Below, in pieces: positions 2,515-40,107 of a stretch of 52,801 bases of DNA. The DNA is from an uncultured Alphaproteobacteria bacterium (GTDB lineage Bacteria > Pseudomonadota > Alphaproteobacteria > Rhodobacterales > Rhodobacteraceae). Each line of letters starts with the position of its first letter. Within the stretch, counting starts at the first letter, position 1. The notes beneath the pieces are model-generated. The model ran no database searches and was not told where the DNA came from. It saw only the letters and a program-made list of their open reading frames with translations. The stretch lies in contig CACMAH010000010.1 in NCBI GenBank assembly GCA_902611605.1, positions 1 to 52,801 on the forward strand. The letters are read 5' to 3'. Made by a program: the position numbers and the translations under genes.

Positions 2515-3738
2515 TTAATTTTTTTCCAGAAATGACCCTACTAAATAAAGTGATCCCGTAATCAGTATTATTTTTGGAATGTATGTTTTTTCATTGTATA
2601 CAATTTGTAATGCCTTTTCCAGACTTTCAGTGACTTGAGAATTAATATCAAGAGACTTAGTTTTTTCAAAAATATCTTTGGCATCGTATGAGTTTTTTTG
2701 TTGAGGTATTTTAATTGCAATTAATTTGTAAATATATGGTTTTATTGGCTTAAGAAAACCTTCAACGTCCTTGTTGTTCATCATTCCTAGTATGATATAA
2801 AATTTAATCTTTTCGAAATTTTTCACCCATTTTGATAATGCTATTCCTGCTGATTTATTATGACCACCATCTAAAAATACTTCTCCATTAGGTTCTGAAT
2901 TTTTAGGTATTAATTTACCTTTTTCTATTTTCTGTAATCTTCCTTGCCAAGAAACCTTGGTTAGCGCATCAACTAGGTTTTTTTTTCTACATTTTAATTC
3001 TATAAGTGCAGCAATTGAAACTGAGGCATTTTCTATTTGATGGATTCCATTAAGCAATGGGATTGGAAGTTTTATTTTTTTTCTTTTTGTTATAAATAAA
3101 AAAGAATTTTTACAGTATTTTGCCTTAAAATCATTTCCATATATATATGTTTTACAATCAACCTTATTTGCTTCATTTTTTATAACTTTTAGGGCAGCAT
3201 TTTTTTGTTTTGAAATAATCACTTTTGAATTCTCTTTAATGATACCACTTTTTTCAAAGGCAATTTTTTTTATGTTATTACCTAAAAATTCCTGATGATC
3301 CATAGAAATTGGAGTTATAATGCTTAATAAAGGACTTTTAATAACATTGGTAGAATCCAATCTACCTCCCAAGCCAACTTCTAAAATTGTCCAATGAGCC
3401 TTTTCTCTTGAGAATGCTAAGAAAGCAACTGCTGTGATTAGTTCAAAAAAACTCAGGTCATTGTTACCATTGGCTTTTACACATTCCTCTAATAAGACAT
3501 TAAAGTGTTTTAAGTCAATTTTTTTTCCAGCTATTAAAATTCTTTCTGTTATGTCTACTAAATGTGGTGAAGTAAAAACGTGTACTTTATCACCTCTGGA
3601 TTCTAGTCCTGCTTTTATAAATGCTACTGTAGAACCTTTTCCGTTTGTCCCTGCAATATGAATTACAGGAGGTAAGGATTCATGAGGATTTCCAATTTTG
3701 TTTAAAAGCTTTGAAATTCTTAATTTATTTAAACCCAA
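2515..3738 (-). CDS. folC: Bifunctional dihydrofolate synthase / folylpolyglutamate synthase
   Basis: FolC adds glutamate to dihydropteroate and polyglutamylates folates. Near the N-terminus is the P-loop AGTNGKGSTV, followed by the family segment FTSPHL and HQEFLG. The coordinates use the TTG at 3738, giving 407 residues, but this start cuts into the normal N-terminus. The frame stays open without ATG or GTG to a TAA at 3829-3831, and the extra residues (CKKILNNFPKRLGLNKLR) align with the usual N-terminal helix. A CTG at 3805-3807, about 10 bases after an AAGGA, is the best longer start. An ATG five bases after that AAGGA is in another frame and stops after five codons. It is probably co-transcribed with accD. 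Confidence 0.9.
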   Translation of the reverse strand: MGLNKLRISKLLNKIGNPHESLPPVIHIAGTNGKGSTVAFIKAGLESRGDKVHVFTSPHLVDITERILIAGKKIDLKHFNVLLEECVKANGNNDLSFFELITAVAFLAFSREKAHWTILEVGLGGRLDSTNVIKSPLLSIITPISMDHQEFLGNNIKKIAFEKSGIIKENSKVIISKQKNAALKVIKNEANKVDCKTYIYGNDFKAKYCKNSFLFITKRKKIKLPIPLLNGIHQIENASVSIAALIELKCRKKNLVDALTKVSWQGRLQKIEKGKLIPKNSEPNGEVFLDGGHNKSAGIALSKWVKNFEKIKFYIILGMMNNKDVEGFLKPIKPYIYKLIAIKIPQQKNSYDAKDIFEKTKSLDINSQVTESLEKALQIVYNEKTYIPKIILITGSLYLVGSFLEKN

Positions 3739-15061: not shown

Positions 15062-17191
15062 TTATGATTTATTTTGTGTTACTTCTTTACCAGTTTTTTG
15101 ATCAACTGTTTTCATAGATAAACGAACTTTCCCCCTATCATCAAAACCAATCAATTTTACTTTAACTTCCTGACCTTCTTTAAGAAAATCTTTTGGATGT
15201 GCAACTCTTTCAGTTGAAATCTGACTAACATGTACTAATCCATCTTTTTTACCAAAGAAATTCACAAAAGCTCCAAACTCCATAAGTTTTACGATCTTAC
15301 CATTATAGATTTTACCAACTTCTGGTTCATCAACTATAGATTTAATTAACTCTATAGCTTTATTAATCTTTTCAGAATCATTTGACGCAATTTTTATTAT
15401 GCCTTCATCATTTATATCTACTTTTGCACCTGAAACTTCGACTATTTCACGAATCATCTTTCCGCCTGACCCGATTACTTCTCTTATTTTATCAGTTGCA
15501 ATTTTTAGAGACTCAATTTTAGGAGCATATTTAGAAAATTCATTCGGTTTACTGATTGATTTTGACATTTCATTTAGAATATGAAGCCTTCCTTCTTTAG
15601 CCTGTTCTAATGCTTTTTCCATTATTTCAGGGGTAATTCCAGCAACTTTTATATCCATTTGTAAGGATGTTATTCCTTCGGATGTTCCAGCAACTTTAAA
15701 ATCCATATCTCCCAAGTGGTCTTCATCACCCAAAATGTCCGTAAGAACTGCATATTCTTTTCCTTCTAAAATAAGACCCATTGCTACTCCTGCTACAGCA
15801 GATTTCAAAGGTACGCCTGCATCCATCATAGATAAAGATCCACCACATACAGAAGCCATTGAAGACGAGCCATTAGACTCTGTGATTTCAGATACGATGC
15901 GAATTGTATATGGAAAATCAGAACTTTTTGGTAGAACAGCTTGTAGAGCTCGCCACGCCAATTTTCCATGGCCTATTTCTCTTCTACCTGGCCCTGCAGC
16001 CCTTCCTGTTTCTCCTACCGAATAAGGAGGAAAGTTATAATGAAGTAAAAATTTTGATCTTCCTTCTTTGTGAAGAGAGTCTATTATCTGCTCATCCTCA
16101 CCAGTACCAAGAGTAGTAACAACTATCGCTTGAGTTTCACCTCTTGTAAATAAAGCAGAACCATGTGTTCTTGGGAGAAATCTTGTTTCACTTTCAATTT
16201 GTCGAACTTTATCAAGTTTTCTTCCATCAATTCTCTTTCCTTTTTTAAGGATATTAGATCTTACAATTTCAGATTCAACTTTTTTAAAGCAATAATCTAG
16301 TTCTTCATTTTCTAAATCTTCGTCTGAAAGGTTATCTAAAACATTTTGTTTAGCATCGTTTAATGAGTTTTGTCTCTCTTGTTTATCAGCAATTGAAAAT
16401 GCTTTACTGATATTTTTTTCACCAAGTGATTTTATTTTATTTATTAATTCTTTATTATCAGTAGGTATAAAGTTATAAGGTTCTTTTGCTGTTTTTTCTG
16501 CTAAACTTATGATGAGATCTATAACTTTTTGTATTTGATCATGACCAAATTTAACAGCACCTAGCATTTCTTTTTCACTAAGTTCATAAGCTTCGGATTC
16601 AACCATCATAACCGCATCTTGTGTCCCTGCTACTACAAGATCAAGTCTTTGTTTAGAATTTTCTCTTATATTATCCATATCTTCTATTGAAGGATTAAGA
16701 ACGTAAGAGTCTTCAATAAAACCAACCCTAGCGGCTCCAATTGGACCTAAGAAAGGTGCACCAGAAAGTGTAAGAGCAGTAGATGCTGCTATCATTGAAA
16801 GTATATCTGGGTCATTTTCTCCATCATGACTCAAAACTGTACAAGTAACCTGTACTTCATTTTTGAAACCCTCAACAAATAAGGGTCTTATCGGTCGATC
16901 TATAAGACGGCTGGTTAGAGTTTCTTTTTCTGTAGGTCTTGCCTCTCTTTTAAAAAAACCACCTGGAATTTTACCTGCTGCGTAATATTTTTCTTGATAA
17001 TTAACTGTTAATGGAAAAAAATCTTGACCCGCTTTGGCTTCCTTCGCAAAAACAACATTAGCCATTACTACAGTTTCACCATATGTGGCTATAACAGATG
17101 AATCAGCTTGTCGTGCTATTTTTCCTGTTTCAAGTGTAAGTTTCTCATGACCCCAAGTTATTGATTTTTTTATAGACTTTAACATATCCAT
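15062..17191 (-). CDS. pnp: Polyribonucleotide nucleotidyltransferase (PNPase)
   Basis: PNPase degrades RNA phosphorolytically from the 3' end and is a degradosome component. The 709-residue protein has two RNase PH domains separated by a helical linker: [14 protein letters not shown] and [10 protein letters not shown] in the first, [15 protein letters not shown] and the D-rich [15 protein letters not shown] in the second. A KH domain ([15 protein letters not shown], about residue 560) and an S1 domain ([18 protein letters not shown], about 625) follow. It lies downstream of rpsO, the usual order. Confidence 0.98.
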
Positions 17192-35848: not shown

Positions 35849-36769
35849 TTATTTGCTATGAATTACATCAAGGCACATTTCTGGTAGATCATCCATGGTA
35901 TAATCTCTAGCCCCTTTTTTCTTTTTTGTGGGAGGTTTCTTTTTTGTGGGATCTGCTGGCTCCAAAGCTTTTGTAACCCACCAATATAAAGTTTCATCAC
36001 ATCCAGTTAAGCTTTTTGAAATTTCAGAAACAGTTGGTCTTTGTGTAATACATTCTGTAGAATCTTGTGGACATTTTAGTCTTACATGAAAATGAGAATG
36101 ATGACCCCATATGGGTCTTATTTTTTGAAGCCATTTTTTTGACCCCTGAATATTTTCACACATCCAAATTTTTGCAGGTGCGTTTATAAATATTCTGTCA
36201 ACACGATTATCTAATGCGGCTTCTCTTAATATTTTCGCATGTACCAAAGTCCAATTCTTATTTACTTCTTTTAAGTTTTTTTTCCTTACAGATAGTGCTT
36301 TCATATTATCTCGTTCTTTTTTTGTAAGTGTAAGGCTTTTGGGTGGAGTAAGCCAAATATCAACATCTAAGCCAGTTTGGTGGGATTGATGTCCATATGG
36401 CATTGGACCACCCCTAGGTGCTGCTATATCACCTATATAAAGACCTTTCCATCCAACCTTTTTTGCTGACTCACTTAAATTTATTATATAGCTTATTACA
36501 TCTGGGTGTCCCCAATTTCTATTTCTACTAGGTCTCATCACTTGCCAAGTAGGTCCAGTATCTTTTAATTTTACTCCCCCACTAAGGCATCCTTTTGCAT
36601 AAAACCCTATTGGTTTACTTTCACCAAAGGTGGGAAGATTAAATTTTTCAAAAATTTTATTAGCTTGTAAGTTTTGATTTGGGTCATGCCCAAAGCTAGG
36701 ATTTATTTTAAATAGAAAAATAAATATTATTGATATTAATTTAGTATAAAACACAAGATTTATTACCAT
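35849..36769 (-). CDS. mepA: Penicillin-insensitive murein endopeptidase MepA
   Basis: MepA is a LAS-type zinc peptidase that cuts D-Ala-mDAP cross-links in the periplasm. The 306-residue protein has an N-terminal signal sequence (hydrophobic stretch to about residue 26), the metal ligands in GHQSHQTGLDVDIW, and the distal His in WGHHSHFHVRLKCP. A lysine/proline-rich patch (KKKPPTKKKK) precedes the short C-terminal end. Its start overlaps the preceding small gene by 29 bases, so the two are probably translated together. Confidence 0.92.
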   Translation of the reverse strand: MVINLVFYTKLISIIFIFLFKINPSFGHDPNQNLQANKIFEKFNLPTFGESKPIGFYAKGCLSGGVKLKDTGPTWQVMRPSRNRNWGHPDVISYIINLSESAKKVGWKGLYIGDIAAPRGGPMPYGHQSHQTGLDVDIWLTPPKSLTLTKKERDNMKALSVRKKNLKEVNKNWTLVHAKILREAALDNRVDRIFINAPAKIWMCENIQGSKKWLQKIRPIWGHHSHFHVRLKCPQDSTECITQRPTVSEISKSLTGCDETLYWWVTKALEPADPTKKKPPTKKKKGARDYTMDDLPEMCLDVIHSK

Positions 36770-37013
36770 TTTTTTCTATAGTACACCAAAAAAAATCGTT
36801 ATCGTATTCTATAACAAGATGTTTATGGTCCTCTTCATTTATGGTCTCTTGAACTAAACCTGATTTAATGATTCGATCCGCTTCTTTTCCCTCGTAGAAA
36901 TCTTCACCAGACAAAGCACTAAAAGTTGGTATAATGAAAAAAATTTTTATCAGTATAAAAATTTTTATTATAATAAAAATCCTATTAGCAATATTTAATA
37001 TAAATCTTTTCAT
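36741..37013 (-). CDS. Small exported protein of unknown function
   Basis: The 90-residue product starts with a basic residue pair and a long Ile/Phe-rich hydrophobic stretch (to about residue 33), a signal peptide or membrane anchor. The mature part is acidic and has two cysteines (FWCTIEKNGNKSCVLY) that could form a disulfide. It overlaps the HugZ-like gene by four bases (ATG within the stop) and mepA by 29, so it looks like a real member of this leftward operon. I know no family for it. Confidence 0.6.
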   Translation of the reverse strand: MKRFILNIANRIFIIIKIFILIKIFFIIPTFSALSGEDFYEGKEADRIIKSGLVQETINEEDHKHLVIEYDNDFFWCTIEKNGNKSCVLY

Positions 37014-37489
37014 GTGTTTCCTTGATAAGCTTTTCCAAAACCTTCAACAAAAATTTTCTTTTTCTCTTTAAAAGCATAGAAATTAAAATCAGCAAACATA
37101 CCCCACATTTTTGAACCGGGTTCAACTTTATTATAATTTTGTAGTAGCATTTGAAAGTTTGGATCATCCTTTTTTAATTCTACCTTTTTAAATTTGCCTT
37201 GGAGTGTAAGTCTAGGATTATTTGATTTTATCTTATGAGTTTCTTCTTGGGCAAAATACAGTGAGGCATTTGGGTTTGCATTCAAGTTTTTTGTATGCTC
37301 ACTTAAATCACTAATCAGAAGGTATATGGTATCATTATAATTCATTGGAATTACTTTTGTAACCATAGGTATACCTGTGTCATCTATCGTGCCTAGGGCT
37401 GCCTGTTGATAATTACCACCTATAATTTTTTTAATTTTAAGTGCAACATCTTCAGTTATTTCATGAGTAAGCGGCTTTTTTTCTTTCAT
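37010..37489 (-). CDS. Pyridoxamine-5'-phosphate-oxidase-like FMN-binding (HugZ-like) protein
   Basis: The 159-residue protein is a split-barrel flavin-fold protein. LGTIDDTGIPMVTKVIPMN and LISDLSEHTKNLNANPNASLYF match the FMN-binding region, and the end DFNFYAFKEKKKIFVEGFGKAYQ resembles the HugZ branch, some members of which degrade or bind haem. It lacks the extra C-terminal haem domain of full HugZ. Function as haem protein or oxidoreductase is inference. Confidence 0.78.
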   Translation of the reverse strand: MKEKKPLTHEITEDVALKIKKIIGGNYQQAALGTIDDTGIPMVTKVIPMNYNDTIYLLISDLSEHTKNLNANPNASLYFAQEETHKIKSNNPRLTLQGKFKKVELKKDDPNFQMLLQNYNKVEPGSKMWGMFADFNFYAFKEKKKIFVEGFGKAYQGNT

Positions 37490-37534: not shown

Positions 37535-38230
37535 TCAATTTGCAAATAAATCGTTATGTGGTGATTTTTCTAATTTTTTACCTAATTTTTTTTCTTCTTC
37601 GTCTGAGTAACTAAAAAATCTTCCAAGTAAAGACTTCCTTTTTTTTAGTCCAATTAACCTTATTTCAAAGACAGCAGACTGTTGAATATTCTCTAAGTGT
37701 GCTTTGGCTGGTACTGCAACATGAGGCTCAATATACTCTCTCTTTAAAGCTGCTTTAATTCTTTGAATTGCATCACTTTTAATTCTAGCAATCCTTGATA
37801 TTGCGGATCTTTCAATTCGTTTAGTCTCACCTGCAAATTCATTAAGTTGATTTTGGGTTGGCTCAGGTATTTTTATTAAAATGTGGGTTGAATCTTTAAC
37901 CCTATTAACTTGTTTAAAACCATTTTGTTTAATAATAAATATTATATCTTCAATTAAATTTTCACGAAAAACATTTATTCTAAAGCTATCTGTTGATTTA
38001 TCATTTTGATCAATGTTTTCATCATCATCTTCATTTATTATTTCAGAAAAATCAGATAACCTACGATTTTTTCCTTCTACTATTAATCTGACACCATAAA
38101 GAATATTTTTAAATGCATCTTTAGAACCAACAACATTGAGATCCTCAACTAAAAAACCTAATATATCTTCTGTTCTTGCCATAGCCGCTAAAGAATAGGA
38201 ATCTAGAGGAGTGTCTATATCTAATTTCAT
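37535..38230 (-). CDS. Ribosome-recycling-factor-like protein (divergent RRF paralogue)
   Basis: The 231-residue protein resembles RRF from about residue 82 to 200. RINVFRENL corresponds to KINVFDRSM of E. coli RRF. IKIPEPTQNQLNEF corresponds to the PLPPLTEERRKDL hinge. AISRIARIKSDAIQRIKAAL corresponds to the VRNVRRDAND helix, and LENIQQSAVFEI to the last helix. The first 80 residues do not match: the IRTGRA motif is absent and an acidic segment (NEDDDENIDQND) is present. A lysine-rich tail extends past the RRF end. The true frr gene should be elsewhere. It heads a leftward group with the HugZ-like gene (45-base gap). The match is by eye. Confidence 0.62.
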   Translation of the reverse strand: MKLDIDTPLDSYSLAAMARTEDILGFLVEDLNVVGSKDAFKNILYGVRLIVEGKNRRLSDFSEIINEDDDENIDQNDKSTDSFRINVFRENLIEDIIFIIKQNGFKQVNRVKDSTHILIKIPEPTQNQLNEFAGETKRIERSAISRIARIKSDAIQRIKAALKREYIEPHVAVPAKAHLENIQQSAVFEIRLIGLKKRKSLLGRFFSYSDEEEKKLGKKLEKSPHNDLFAN

Positions 38231-38448
38231 AATTAACCACTAATTATCATTGGTTTTTTTGAAAAATTGTATTGAACAGAATTTTTATGGAATTAGAATA
38301 CATAAAACTAAAAAAAAAAATTAAAACAACAAAAATTTGCTATTCTGCCAAAAAAAAAAGCAAACTTTATATAGTTAGTAAACAAAATTGAAAATTAATT
38401 AAATATATTTTAAATTATTCAGCTGTCTTCTGTCGGAGAAAATTCTTA

Positions 38449-40107
38449 TTGAAACTTAGATCTCAAAATAGGACTGGTGCACAAATATTAGTTGGGAGCC
38501 TTTTAAAACATTCGGTGGACAAGGTTTTTTGTGTACCTGGGGAGAGCTATTTGGCTGTATTAGATGCACTTTATGACCACAGCCATGAAATAAGTTTAAT
38601 TAATGCAAATCATGAATCAGGAGCTTCGAATATGGCTGAAGCTTACGGAAAATTAACTGGAAAGCCTGGTATAGCATTTGTTACAAGAGGTCCAGGCGCC
38701 TGTCATGCTTCTATTGGGGTTCATATATCAAAACAAGACAGCACACCAATGATATTATTTATAGGACAGGTTGAAAGTTCATCATATGGGAAAGAATCTT
38801 TTCAAGAAATCGATTATGTCAGTATGTTTTCTAAAGTTGCTAAATGGAGTTATCAGATTTCAAATGCTGATGAAATAGAGGAAATTATTCATAAAGCTTT
38901 TGAAGTTTCTAATACTGGTAGAAAAGGTCCTGTGGTTATTTCTTTACCAGAAGACATGTTATCAAAAAAAACTTCTTCAAAAAATTTGAAGGTTTATAAA
39001 ATCAAAAAACCAAAAATAATAAAAAATAAAATATCAGAACTTAAGTCTTTACTTGATCTATCAATAAAACCAATCATGATTTTGGGAGGTGGAAATTGGA
39101 CAATAGAATCAAGATTTAGTATTGAAAAATTTTCTTTGCAAAATCATTTGCCAGTTGTTACCAGTTTTCGCCGTCAAGATTTAATAGACAATAGGTGTGA
39201 AAATTTTATTGGTACTTTGGGTACTTCTGTTTCTCCAAAATTGTTAGAATCATTTAGAGAAGCTGATGTTATTTTAGCTGTTGGGTCTAGATTGAGTGAC
39301 ATGACAACTAATAGTTACAATCTTTTTGATTCATCCTCAAACAAAGTTAAATTAATTCATGTTTATCCGGATGAAAAAGAAATCAATAGAGTTTTTCCTT
39401 CTGAATTAGCCATAATATCTGATATAAACGAATTTGTAGGACAGATTTCAAATTTTTCTTGGTTTAACAATAAAAAATGGGATAAATGGCTTAGTAAACT
39501 TAGGAATGAATATAAACAAGATTTAGCTATTTCCAATAAAACCCTAAATTCAGATTTCACATCTATTTGTCGTAACTTGAGTGAAAATTATTTTGGTAGT
39601 GGTGAATATATTATCACATTAGATGCTGGAAATCATACAGGATGGCCACAAAGATTTCTCAAGTATCATCAAAATTGTCTACAGATTGGATCTACTTGTG
39701 GATCAATGGGTTACTCTATTCCTGCTTCTATAAGTTCAGCATTAGTTTATCCTCAAAAAAAAATTATTTCTTTTGTTGGTGATGGTGGGTTTCTTATGTC
39801 GGGTCTAGAAATATCTACTGCAGTAAATAATAATCTGAATATAATGATTATTTTAATAAATAACTCTTCATACGGAACGATAAGAATGCACCAAGAAAAG
39901 TACTATCCCAAAAGAGTAATAGGAACTGATATTAAAAATCCTGATTTTGTTTCACTTGCAAGGTCAATGGGATCAGAAGCAGTAAAAGTAAAAAATAAAA
40001 AAGAATTTTTAATAGCTTTCAATAAATTTATTAAGTTAAAAGGAGTTTCTTTGATAGAATTTATTACAGATCCCAAAGACCTTTCAACCAGATTAAAATT
40101 AGATTAG
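38449..40107 (+). CDS. Thiamine-diphosphate-dependent enzyme, acetolactate-synthase-like
   Basis: The 552-residue protein has the three-domain ThDP fold of the IlvB family. The N-terminal PYR domain has the cofactor-activating Glu in NHESGASNMAEAYG, a central domain follows, and the C-terminal PP domain has the ThDP/Mg motif GDGGFLMSG ... NNSSYGTIR. No small subunit gene (ilvH) is adjacent, so it is probably not the biosynthetic acetolactate synthase; relatives include sulfoacetaldehyde acetyltransferase, glyoxylate carboligase and benzoylformate decarboxylase. Start is TTG at 38449 with GGAG 10 bases upstream. The 218-base upstream spacer is divergent from the RRF-like gene. Confidence 0.85.
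   Translation: MKLRSQNRTGAQILVGSLLKHSVDKVFCVPGESYLAVLDALYDHSHEISLINANHESGASNMAEAYGKLTGKPGIAFVTRGPGACHASIGVHISKQDSTPMILFIGQVESSSYGKESFQEIDYVSMFSKVAKWSYQISNADEIEEIIHKAFEVSNTGRKGPVVISLPEDMLSKKTSSKNLKVYKIKKPKIIKNKISELKSLLDLSIKPIMILGGGNWTIESRFSIEKFSLQNHLPVVTSFRRQDLIDNRCENFIGTLGTSVSPKLLESFREADVILAVGSRLSDMTTNSYNLFDSSSNKVKLIHVYPDEKEINRVFPSELAIISDINEFVGQISNFSWFNNKKWDKWLSKLRNEYKQDLAISNKTLNSDFTSICRNLSENYFGSGEYIITLDAGNHTGWPQRFLKYHQNCLQIGSTCGSMGYSIPASISSALVYPQKKIISFVGDGGFLMSGLEISTAVNNNLNIMIILINNSSYGTIRMHQEKYYPKRVIGTDIKNPDFVSLARSMGSEAVKVKNKKEFLIAFNKFIKLKGVSLIEFITDPKDLSTRLKLD

Follow-up and report, generated by a model that had tools for sequence, protein, structure and literature searches.

A ribosome recycling factor paralogue of marine Alphaproteobacteria that goes with one type of flagellum

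The window analysed here is a 52,801-nucleotide stretch of DNA (contig CACMAH010000010.1, assembly GCA_902611605.1) from an uncultured member of the Rhodobacteraceae. On its minus strand, at 37535..38230, lies a gene for a 231-amino acid protein that profile matches, predicted fold and phylogenetic position identify as a paralogue of ribosome recycling factor (RRF), denoted here type A or copy A. The next genes on the same strand encode a PPOX/HugZ-like protein of 159 amino acids (37010..37489), a 90-amino acid protein with a hydrophobic N-terminus (36741..37013) and the penicillin-insensitive murein endopeptidase MepA (35849..36769; Peptidase_M74, E 1.7e-90); each of the first two families is represented in 8 of the 9 type A loci of the genus. 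The PPOX/HugZ-like protein, which lies between copy A and mepA in the genus, scores under the heme_HutZ and HugZ cut-offs. On the plus strand, at 38449..40107, there is a divergent gene that resembles those of the acetolactate synthase type, a name read from the sequence, and this family is present in all 9 type A loci. The rpsB-tsf-pyrH-frr context is absent around the paralogue gene, which itself is not inside a flagellar cluster or a motAB operon either. Upstream of copy A, a TTTGCT-N-GGCA block (38344-38364, minus strand) is common to most of the seven aligned sequences from the genus; a scan of the flagellar loci found it a single time, within a gene. The promoter comparison revealed no sigma-28 or sigma-54 consensus at copy A or at copy B (the second paralogue of the genus, see below).

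The type A protein scores 33.8 bits against the Pfam RRF family (PF01765), above the gathering cut-off of 29.7, and 24.2 bits against the frr equivalog TIGR00496, far below the cut-off of 149.1; six other paralogues score 18-46 bits against PF01765, four of them under the cut-off. A single-sequence search of PDB chains returned nothing except a chance match (catalase, E 2). The predicted model, by fold search, matches full-length RRF structures, with both a three-helix bundle and a beta domain, and the model of paralogue B has the same two-domain fold. Among the fold search matches are organellar RRFs (6eri, 7nsh, 6zs9) and 1ise, by its title the Arg132Gly mutant of the E. coli RRF. Thus the RRF-likeness proposed in the earlier note is confirmed, and the two checks suggested there, a profile search and a structure model compared with RRF, yielded an RRF match and a modelled three-helix bundle, respectively. 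The note had also described an N-terminal region of 80 residues that lacks the IRTGRA motif and contains an acidic stretch. Both features are present; this region is no extension, since it covers helix 1 of RRF and the first part of domain II. Helix 1 begins with D10-S11-Y12-S13 (38192..38203, minus strand, converted from residue positions), a mark of the paralogue clade. The beta domain, which according to the model and the alignment corresponds to domain II of RRF, spans residues 37-121 (37868..38122, minus strand), including R56 and R57, and the acidic stretch is a loop within it (residues 66-79; 37994..38035, minus strand), where the pLDDT of the model is partly below 50. The longer tail claimed in the same note is borne out, in that residues 205-231 (37538..37618, minus strand) lie outside the modelled RRF fold.

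The protein therefore shares with canonical Frr (PF01765/TIGR00496) the two-domain fold, an alignment over the whole length and a Pfam score above the cut-off, but differs from it in the absence of RTGRA, the extra tail, the location outside rpsB-tsf-pyrH-frr and the narrow distribution of its clade (9 of the 385 class genomes sampled). Chloroplast and mitochondrial RRFs are similarly diverged relatives of the bacterial factor with the same fold. According to the entry titles, however, the organellar proteins have been solved on ribosomes, whereas the paralogues occur in bacteria alongside a canonical frr and have lost most of the invariant residues.

The window assembly is 74% complete, in 53 contigs, and yields two weak RRF matches, copy A in the window and copy B on contig C6; a canonical frr was not found in it. 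The earlier note had held that, in the absence of any other frr from the genome, the gene would simply be the RRF of the organism. Because this assembly is incomplete, the test cannot be read from it alone, and the sister genomes decide: a separate canonical frr, lacking in the window's own assembly, is present in theirs. Altogether, the genus has 12 assemblies, of which 7 contain a canonical frr (194-207 bits) and 10 contain A, B or both, with all three genes found in G001, G002, G003 and G006. In both sister genomes that were opened, the canonical gene lies in the order rpsB-tsf-pyrH-frr-cdsA-dxr-rseP (names read from the sequences), in agreement with the claim that the window gene is outside the usual frr context. 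That the window protein is simply the diverged recycling factor of this organism is accordingly very improbable. This explanation draws on the absence of canonical frr from the window assembly and four other assemblies of the genus, but these five are 60-74% complete (60-70% for the other four), four of the seven assemblies with canonical frr also carry A and B, the canonical gene occupies its normal operon in the two opened genomes, and the window protein lacks the invariant recycling residues. The window gene is a paralogue and not the recycling factor of the lineage, as had been proposed.

Nor does the gene appear to be decaying. Pairwise comparisons within the genus give dN/dS ratios of 0.03-0.12 for copy A and 0.02-0.08 for copy B, leaving aside the pairs whose dS is saturated (5 of the 21 A pairs and 14 of the 21 B pairs), so that the paralogue is under purifying selection. 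The strong divergence, together with copy A of G006, which is split into ORFs of 68 and 161 amino acids (L039:2744-2950 and 2974-3459) by a sequencing error or as a broken gene, might be taken as signs of a degenerating frr duplicate. Given the low dN/dS, the residue conservation across the clade and the occurrence in several families, we consider this the least probable of all explanations.

A tree built from 39 paralogues and 12 canonical RRFs separates the two groups with support of 100/100, which further upholds the status of the window gene as a paralogue. Relatives were sought with paralogue alignments as search models, and true ones occurred in 9 of the 385 class genomes, in 76 of the 136 genomes from the order of Candidatus Puniceispirillum marinum IMCC1322 (G249), taken here as SAR116 (Puniceispirillales) following a passage of PMC8547437, and in 8 of the 28 genomes from the order that includes G186. 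Six weak matches in the class (28-43 bits) were read as ordinary frr genes, four with RTGR or RSGR and two from 0.6-Mb genomes with an altered motif. A sample of 398 genomes from across the phylum gave matches in 112, with paralogue-level scores (281 and 279 bits) in the window's own genome alone; the remaining matches reached at most 68 bits, and all 19 loaded loci among them have RTGR or RSGR, the other 92 genomes being judged from the score alone. Single genomes of 25 other Rhodobacteraceae genera each gave one match with a canonical score and no paralogue. A and B of the window's genus sit in different branches of the paralogue tree, with A close to the IMCC1322 copy that carries a BLUF domain, albeit with weak support (83/82). 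A recent duplication giving rise to A and B is thereby ruled out, and an obligate A-B pair is ruled out by the many genomes with a single copy. No match to the paralogues was detected among 50,697 phage and 72,556 plasmid records that would point to such an origin, and PADLOC gave no match that would suggest a role in defence.

We compared residues between 70 distinct paralogues and 53 canonical RRFs, numbering the canonical positions by a 185-amino acid gammaproteobacterial RRF, which we take to be equivalent to the E. coli numbering; the RTGR motif, R110, R129, R132 and the other invariant positions presumably represent ribosome contacts or are required for recycling. At ten positions that are identical in all 53 canonical proteins, the paralogues differ almost throughout. 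Glycine at G30, tyrosine at Y45, glutamate at E122, arginine at R129 and threonine at T164 are each retained in none of the 70. R28 is replaced by Gly in 41 and Lys in 20, with Arg left in 2; R31 is Asp or Glu in 54 and never Arg; at R63, 49 paralogues have a gap and 3 have Arg; at R110, Leu predominates (47), followed by Lys (7) and Arg (6); and at R132, 67 paralogues have Lys and a single one has Arg. Other canonical positions are kept to various degrees, namely, P103 (66/70), K178 (Lys in 55, Arg in 14), K140 (Lys or Arg in 60) and D134 (25/70). The window protein has GSKD, L129, A148 and K151 at the places of RTGR, R110, R129 and R132, respectively; K151 is encoded at 37778..37780 (minus strand, by alignment).

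The paralogues have a conserved set of their own (window numbering): Y12 (69/70), S13 (65/70), R56 (68/70), R57 (60/70), D60 (62/70), F105 (62/70), K151 (67/70), E165 (67/70), an aromatic residue at 166 (69/70), I167 (68/70) and G203 (60/70), with Asp (32/70) or Glu (23/70) at residue 10. These amount to a set of motifs: helix 1 opens with (D/E)SYS, domain II contains KxRR, Lys stands in place of R132, and E-Y/F-I follows helix 2. Judging from the alignment, most of the invariant residues of canonical RRF have been traded for this set. Positive charge is kept at R132 and K140 and, through the lysines, partly at R28, so that binding of nucleic acid by the paralogues is conceivable.

The main rival to the interpretation developed below is that the paralogue still acts on ribosomes in an altered way, on the 50S subunit in stress or in the translation of a subset of messages, for example, flagellar ones. 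The predicted models retain the entire RRF fold, domain II included, positive charge persists at the places of R132 (68/70), K140 and K178 (69/70), and the canonical RRF of the sister genomes is available for the normal job, all of which would fit such a role. Against it stand the near-complete loss of the arginines at R28, R31, R110 and R129, with acidic residues prevailing at R31, and a recurrent gene context that is flagellar and not translational; furthermore, at E <= 1, Pfam and NCBIfam report RRF and frr and no hibernation-factor family. This rival is weakened and, in our assessment, unlikely. The binding of ribosomes or free subunits during stress or hibernation suggested in the earlier note is not supported, as most of the canonical invariant positions are changed and the context shared across families is flagellar.

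This context emerged from the loci in other genomes, where flagellar names were read from sequence and gene order, and MotA, MotB, FlhB, rod or hook proteins and FliM were identified with Pfam in the loci and genomes tested. Among the SAR116-order loci, motB lies directly upstream of the paralogue on the same strand in 20 of 30 loaded loci and 1 of 9 further distinct ones (21/39; L217, which repeats one of the 30, is not counted). In family f175, this is the case in all 19 loci, and two loci of family f109 also have the paralogue in a motAB context. MotA and MotB were confirmed by Pfam at the loci tested. The gap between motB and the start of the longest paralogue ORF is 15-50 nucleotides in 18 of the 19 loci (among the 20) with a recognised motB and 167 nucleotides in the remaining one. 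In family f9, one copy (a) lies inside a flagellar cluster, where MotA, MotB and a 307-amino acid gene are followed by the paralogue on the opposite strand, and its strand continues with a PDZ-like gene, a 241-amino acid gene, FlhB and onward. Three genomes of the window's genus have the same cluster order up to flhB, a 249-amino acid gene, a PDZ-like gene, motB and motA; no paralogue adjoins motB in the two gaps read, and A and B are located elsewhere. The loci read in the window's genus, families f19 and f176 and several genera of f109 likewise have the paralogue away from flagellar genes.

Several other genes recur around these loci. The uncharacterised flhB-adjacent gene pair (L171:15288-16037 and 16061-16897), of which one probably encodes a coiled-coil protein with a single transmembrane segment and the other a protein with a DUF2628 match and a weak resemblance to PDZ proteins, is found in this flagellar cluster in several families. 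Near the paralogue, three genomes of the SAR116 order encode homologous small proteins with signal-peptide-like starts (L090:8683-9144, L210:8551-9000, L216:1957-2370), and another family of small proteins with such starts lies beside it in three genomes (L209:8273-8674, L212:7598-7912, L215:1005-1370).

At 100/100, the FliM of the window's genus falls with those of SAR116, f9, f19 and f104, and the FliMs of three other Rhodobacteraceae lie elsewhere, the one split used from a tree with extreme branch lengths. A small-genome Rhodobacteraceae genus (L171, L173, L184) has a SAR116-like flagellar cluster, possibly through horizontal transfer or as a further flagellar type. In the window genome, contig C11 encodes six rod- or hook-type genes, flagellin and flhA-flhF-flhG-fliA-like genes, several of which match a region of IMCC1322 a few kilobases from its BLUF-fused copy; FliM and the marker of the cluster were not found in this assembly and may lie in its missing quarter.

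We used as the marker of this cluster type the gene of about 245 amino acids between flhB and the PDZ-like gene. The 385 genomes of the class comprise 8 with both marker and paralogue, 1 with the marker only (G140), 1 with the paralogue only (the window genome) and 375 with neither, excluding three weak marker matches (E 7e-6 to 6e-4) as coiled-coil noise and counting a match in G178 that spans positions 1-63 only (Fisher p 7e-15; since the genomes are related by descent, this and the following p values overstate the association). In the order of G186, 10 of the 28 genomes have FliM; the paralogue accompanies it in 8 of them and is present in none of the 18 without FliM (p 1.4e-5). The association is modest in the SAR116 order, where the 136 genomes divide into 60 with both, 16 with the paralogue only, 34 with FliM only and 26 with neither (p 0.008); for genomes at least 90% complete (38 readable in the tables, including G514 with 7% contamination), the respective numbers are 23, 3, 8 and 4. 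The three paralogue-only genomes in this subset include G509 and G466, which have other flagellar genes, and G504, in which the one family tried gave no flagellar gene. The 12 assemblies of the window's genus include 5 with FliM and 10 with the paralogue (4 with both, 6 with the paralogue only, 1, G005, with FliM only and 1 with neither); rod or hook genes, one or more per assembly, are present in 5 of the 6 paralogue-only assemblies, all six incomplete, the exception being G010.

A search with a wider model detected no further paralogue in the 34 FliM-only genomes of the SAR116 order or in G559, G564, G005 and G140. Its low matches in nine genomes (30-49 bits) were read as canonical frr, four with RTGR, four with RVGR or RIGR, and that of G564 (48.5 bits) assigned by score; a 17-bit fragment in G005 was left unassigned. 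FliM thus occurs without the paralogue in 34 of the 136 SAR116-order genomes. We conclude that the paralogue goes with this flagellar type without being required for the flagellum.

Conceivably, the paralogue is a conserved accessory protein whose link to the flagellum merely reflects the shared ancestry of the lineages that keep both. The loci mentioned above in which it does not adjoin flagellar genes and the many flagellated SAR116 genomes without it are compatible with this alternative. Three observations argue otherwise: in the order of G186, the paralogue is confined to two genera with FliM; motA, motB and the paralogue stay together in the f175 loci despite differing genes on the other side; and within the Rhodobacteraceae, one genus has both, against 25 of 25 other sampled genera (one genome each) without the paralogue. 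We regard coincidental co-inheritance as somewhat less probable still than an altered action on ribosomes.

Some of the paralogues are connected to sensory domains. A C-terminal BLUF domain (PF04940, E 2.9e-24) is fused to one copy of Ca. P. marinum IMCC1322, the sole such fusion seen; in this respect that copy joins the BLUF-domain proteins, unlike the window protein, in which Pfam detected no BLUF match. Genes for cyclic nucleotide (cNMP)-binding proteins adjoin the paralogue in G186 (by Pfam) and, by clustering, in all 5 loaded loci of its genus, whereas clustering showed no such neighbour in the 3 loci of the sister genus g322. Elsewhere, a cNMP-binding gene neighbours the paralogue in G545, lies three genes from it in G521 and is found at a distance of about 4 kb in G492. 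The cNMP-binding proteins near paralogues, which belong to several genera, are encoded at L212:6353-6772, L214:6031-6360, L210:12807-13169 and L093:2567-3919. One fusion and a few neighbours give a slight hint that the paralogue may be an output module under sensory control.

Taken together, these observations favour a reading, to which we assign a probability of about 0.6, in which an RRF paralogue gave up ribosome recycling to serve one type of alphaproteobacterial flagellum as an accessory or control protein. Such a protein, soluble and cytosolic, would bind a flagellar partner. Its likely docking site would be formed by the conserved residues where helix 1 begins and those of the turn between helices 2 and 3, which would come together at the far end of the bundle. 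Because the SAR116 gene starts 15-50 nucleotides behind motB, MotA/MotB or the switch would be the first candidate partner. The BLUF domain at the C-terminus of the Ca. P. marinum copy would render this action blue-light-dependent. The window's genus carries two paralogues of different lineages, A and B, neither of which is now beside motAB. More tentatively, and with the odds against this fuller version, RRF might have been copied and repurposed once, early in marine Alphaproteobacteria, as a sensor-fed cytosolic control of the motor (a brake, clutch or stator gate), responding to blue light through BLUF in Ca. P. marinum and perhaps to cNMP through neighbouring proteins elsewhere.

Recruitment of this kind has a precedent in the Rhodobacterales, for which passages of PMC12363192 describe three flagellar types with lineage-specific accessory proteins. 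There, CP1-4 of the fla1-type flagella are conserved proteins recruited to the flagellar type of one lineage, as we propose for the paralogues; however, CP1-4 are described as fla1-specific and essential for motility, whereas the paralogues are relatives of RRF, accompany a SAR116-like cluster and are not required for the flagellum. The literature searched, with subscription papers mostly outside the search, contained nothing relevant on an RRF paralogue in connection with flagella, the stator, SAR116 or BLUF, no paper naming both BLUF and ribosome recycling factor and none on R132 mutants; a word search of PMC12262181 and PMC11813361 gave no relevant passage.

The paralogue clade concerns bacteria of the ocean, including SAR116 and a small-genome genus of the Rhodobacteraceae, in which automatic annotation may label such genes as ribosome recycling factor. 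RRF is among the most uniform translation proteins of bacteria, normally encoded by a single gene and performing one job. If the proposed flagellar function is true, these paralogues, which keep the fold while exchanging the residues of ribosome contact, would be an unusual example of a core translation factor taking on a new cellular role.
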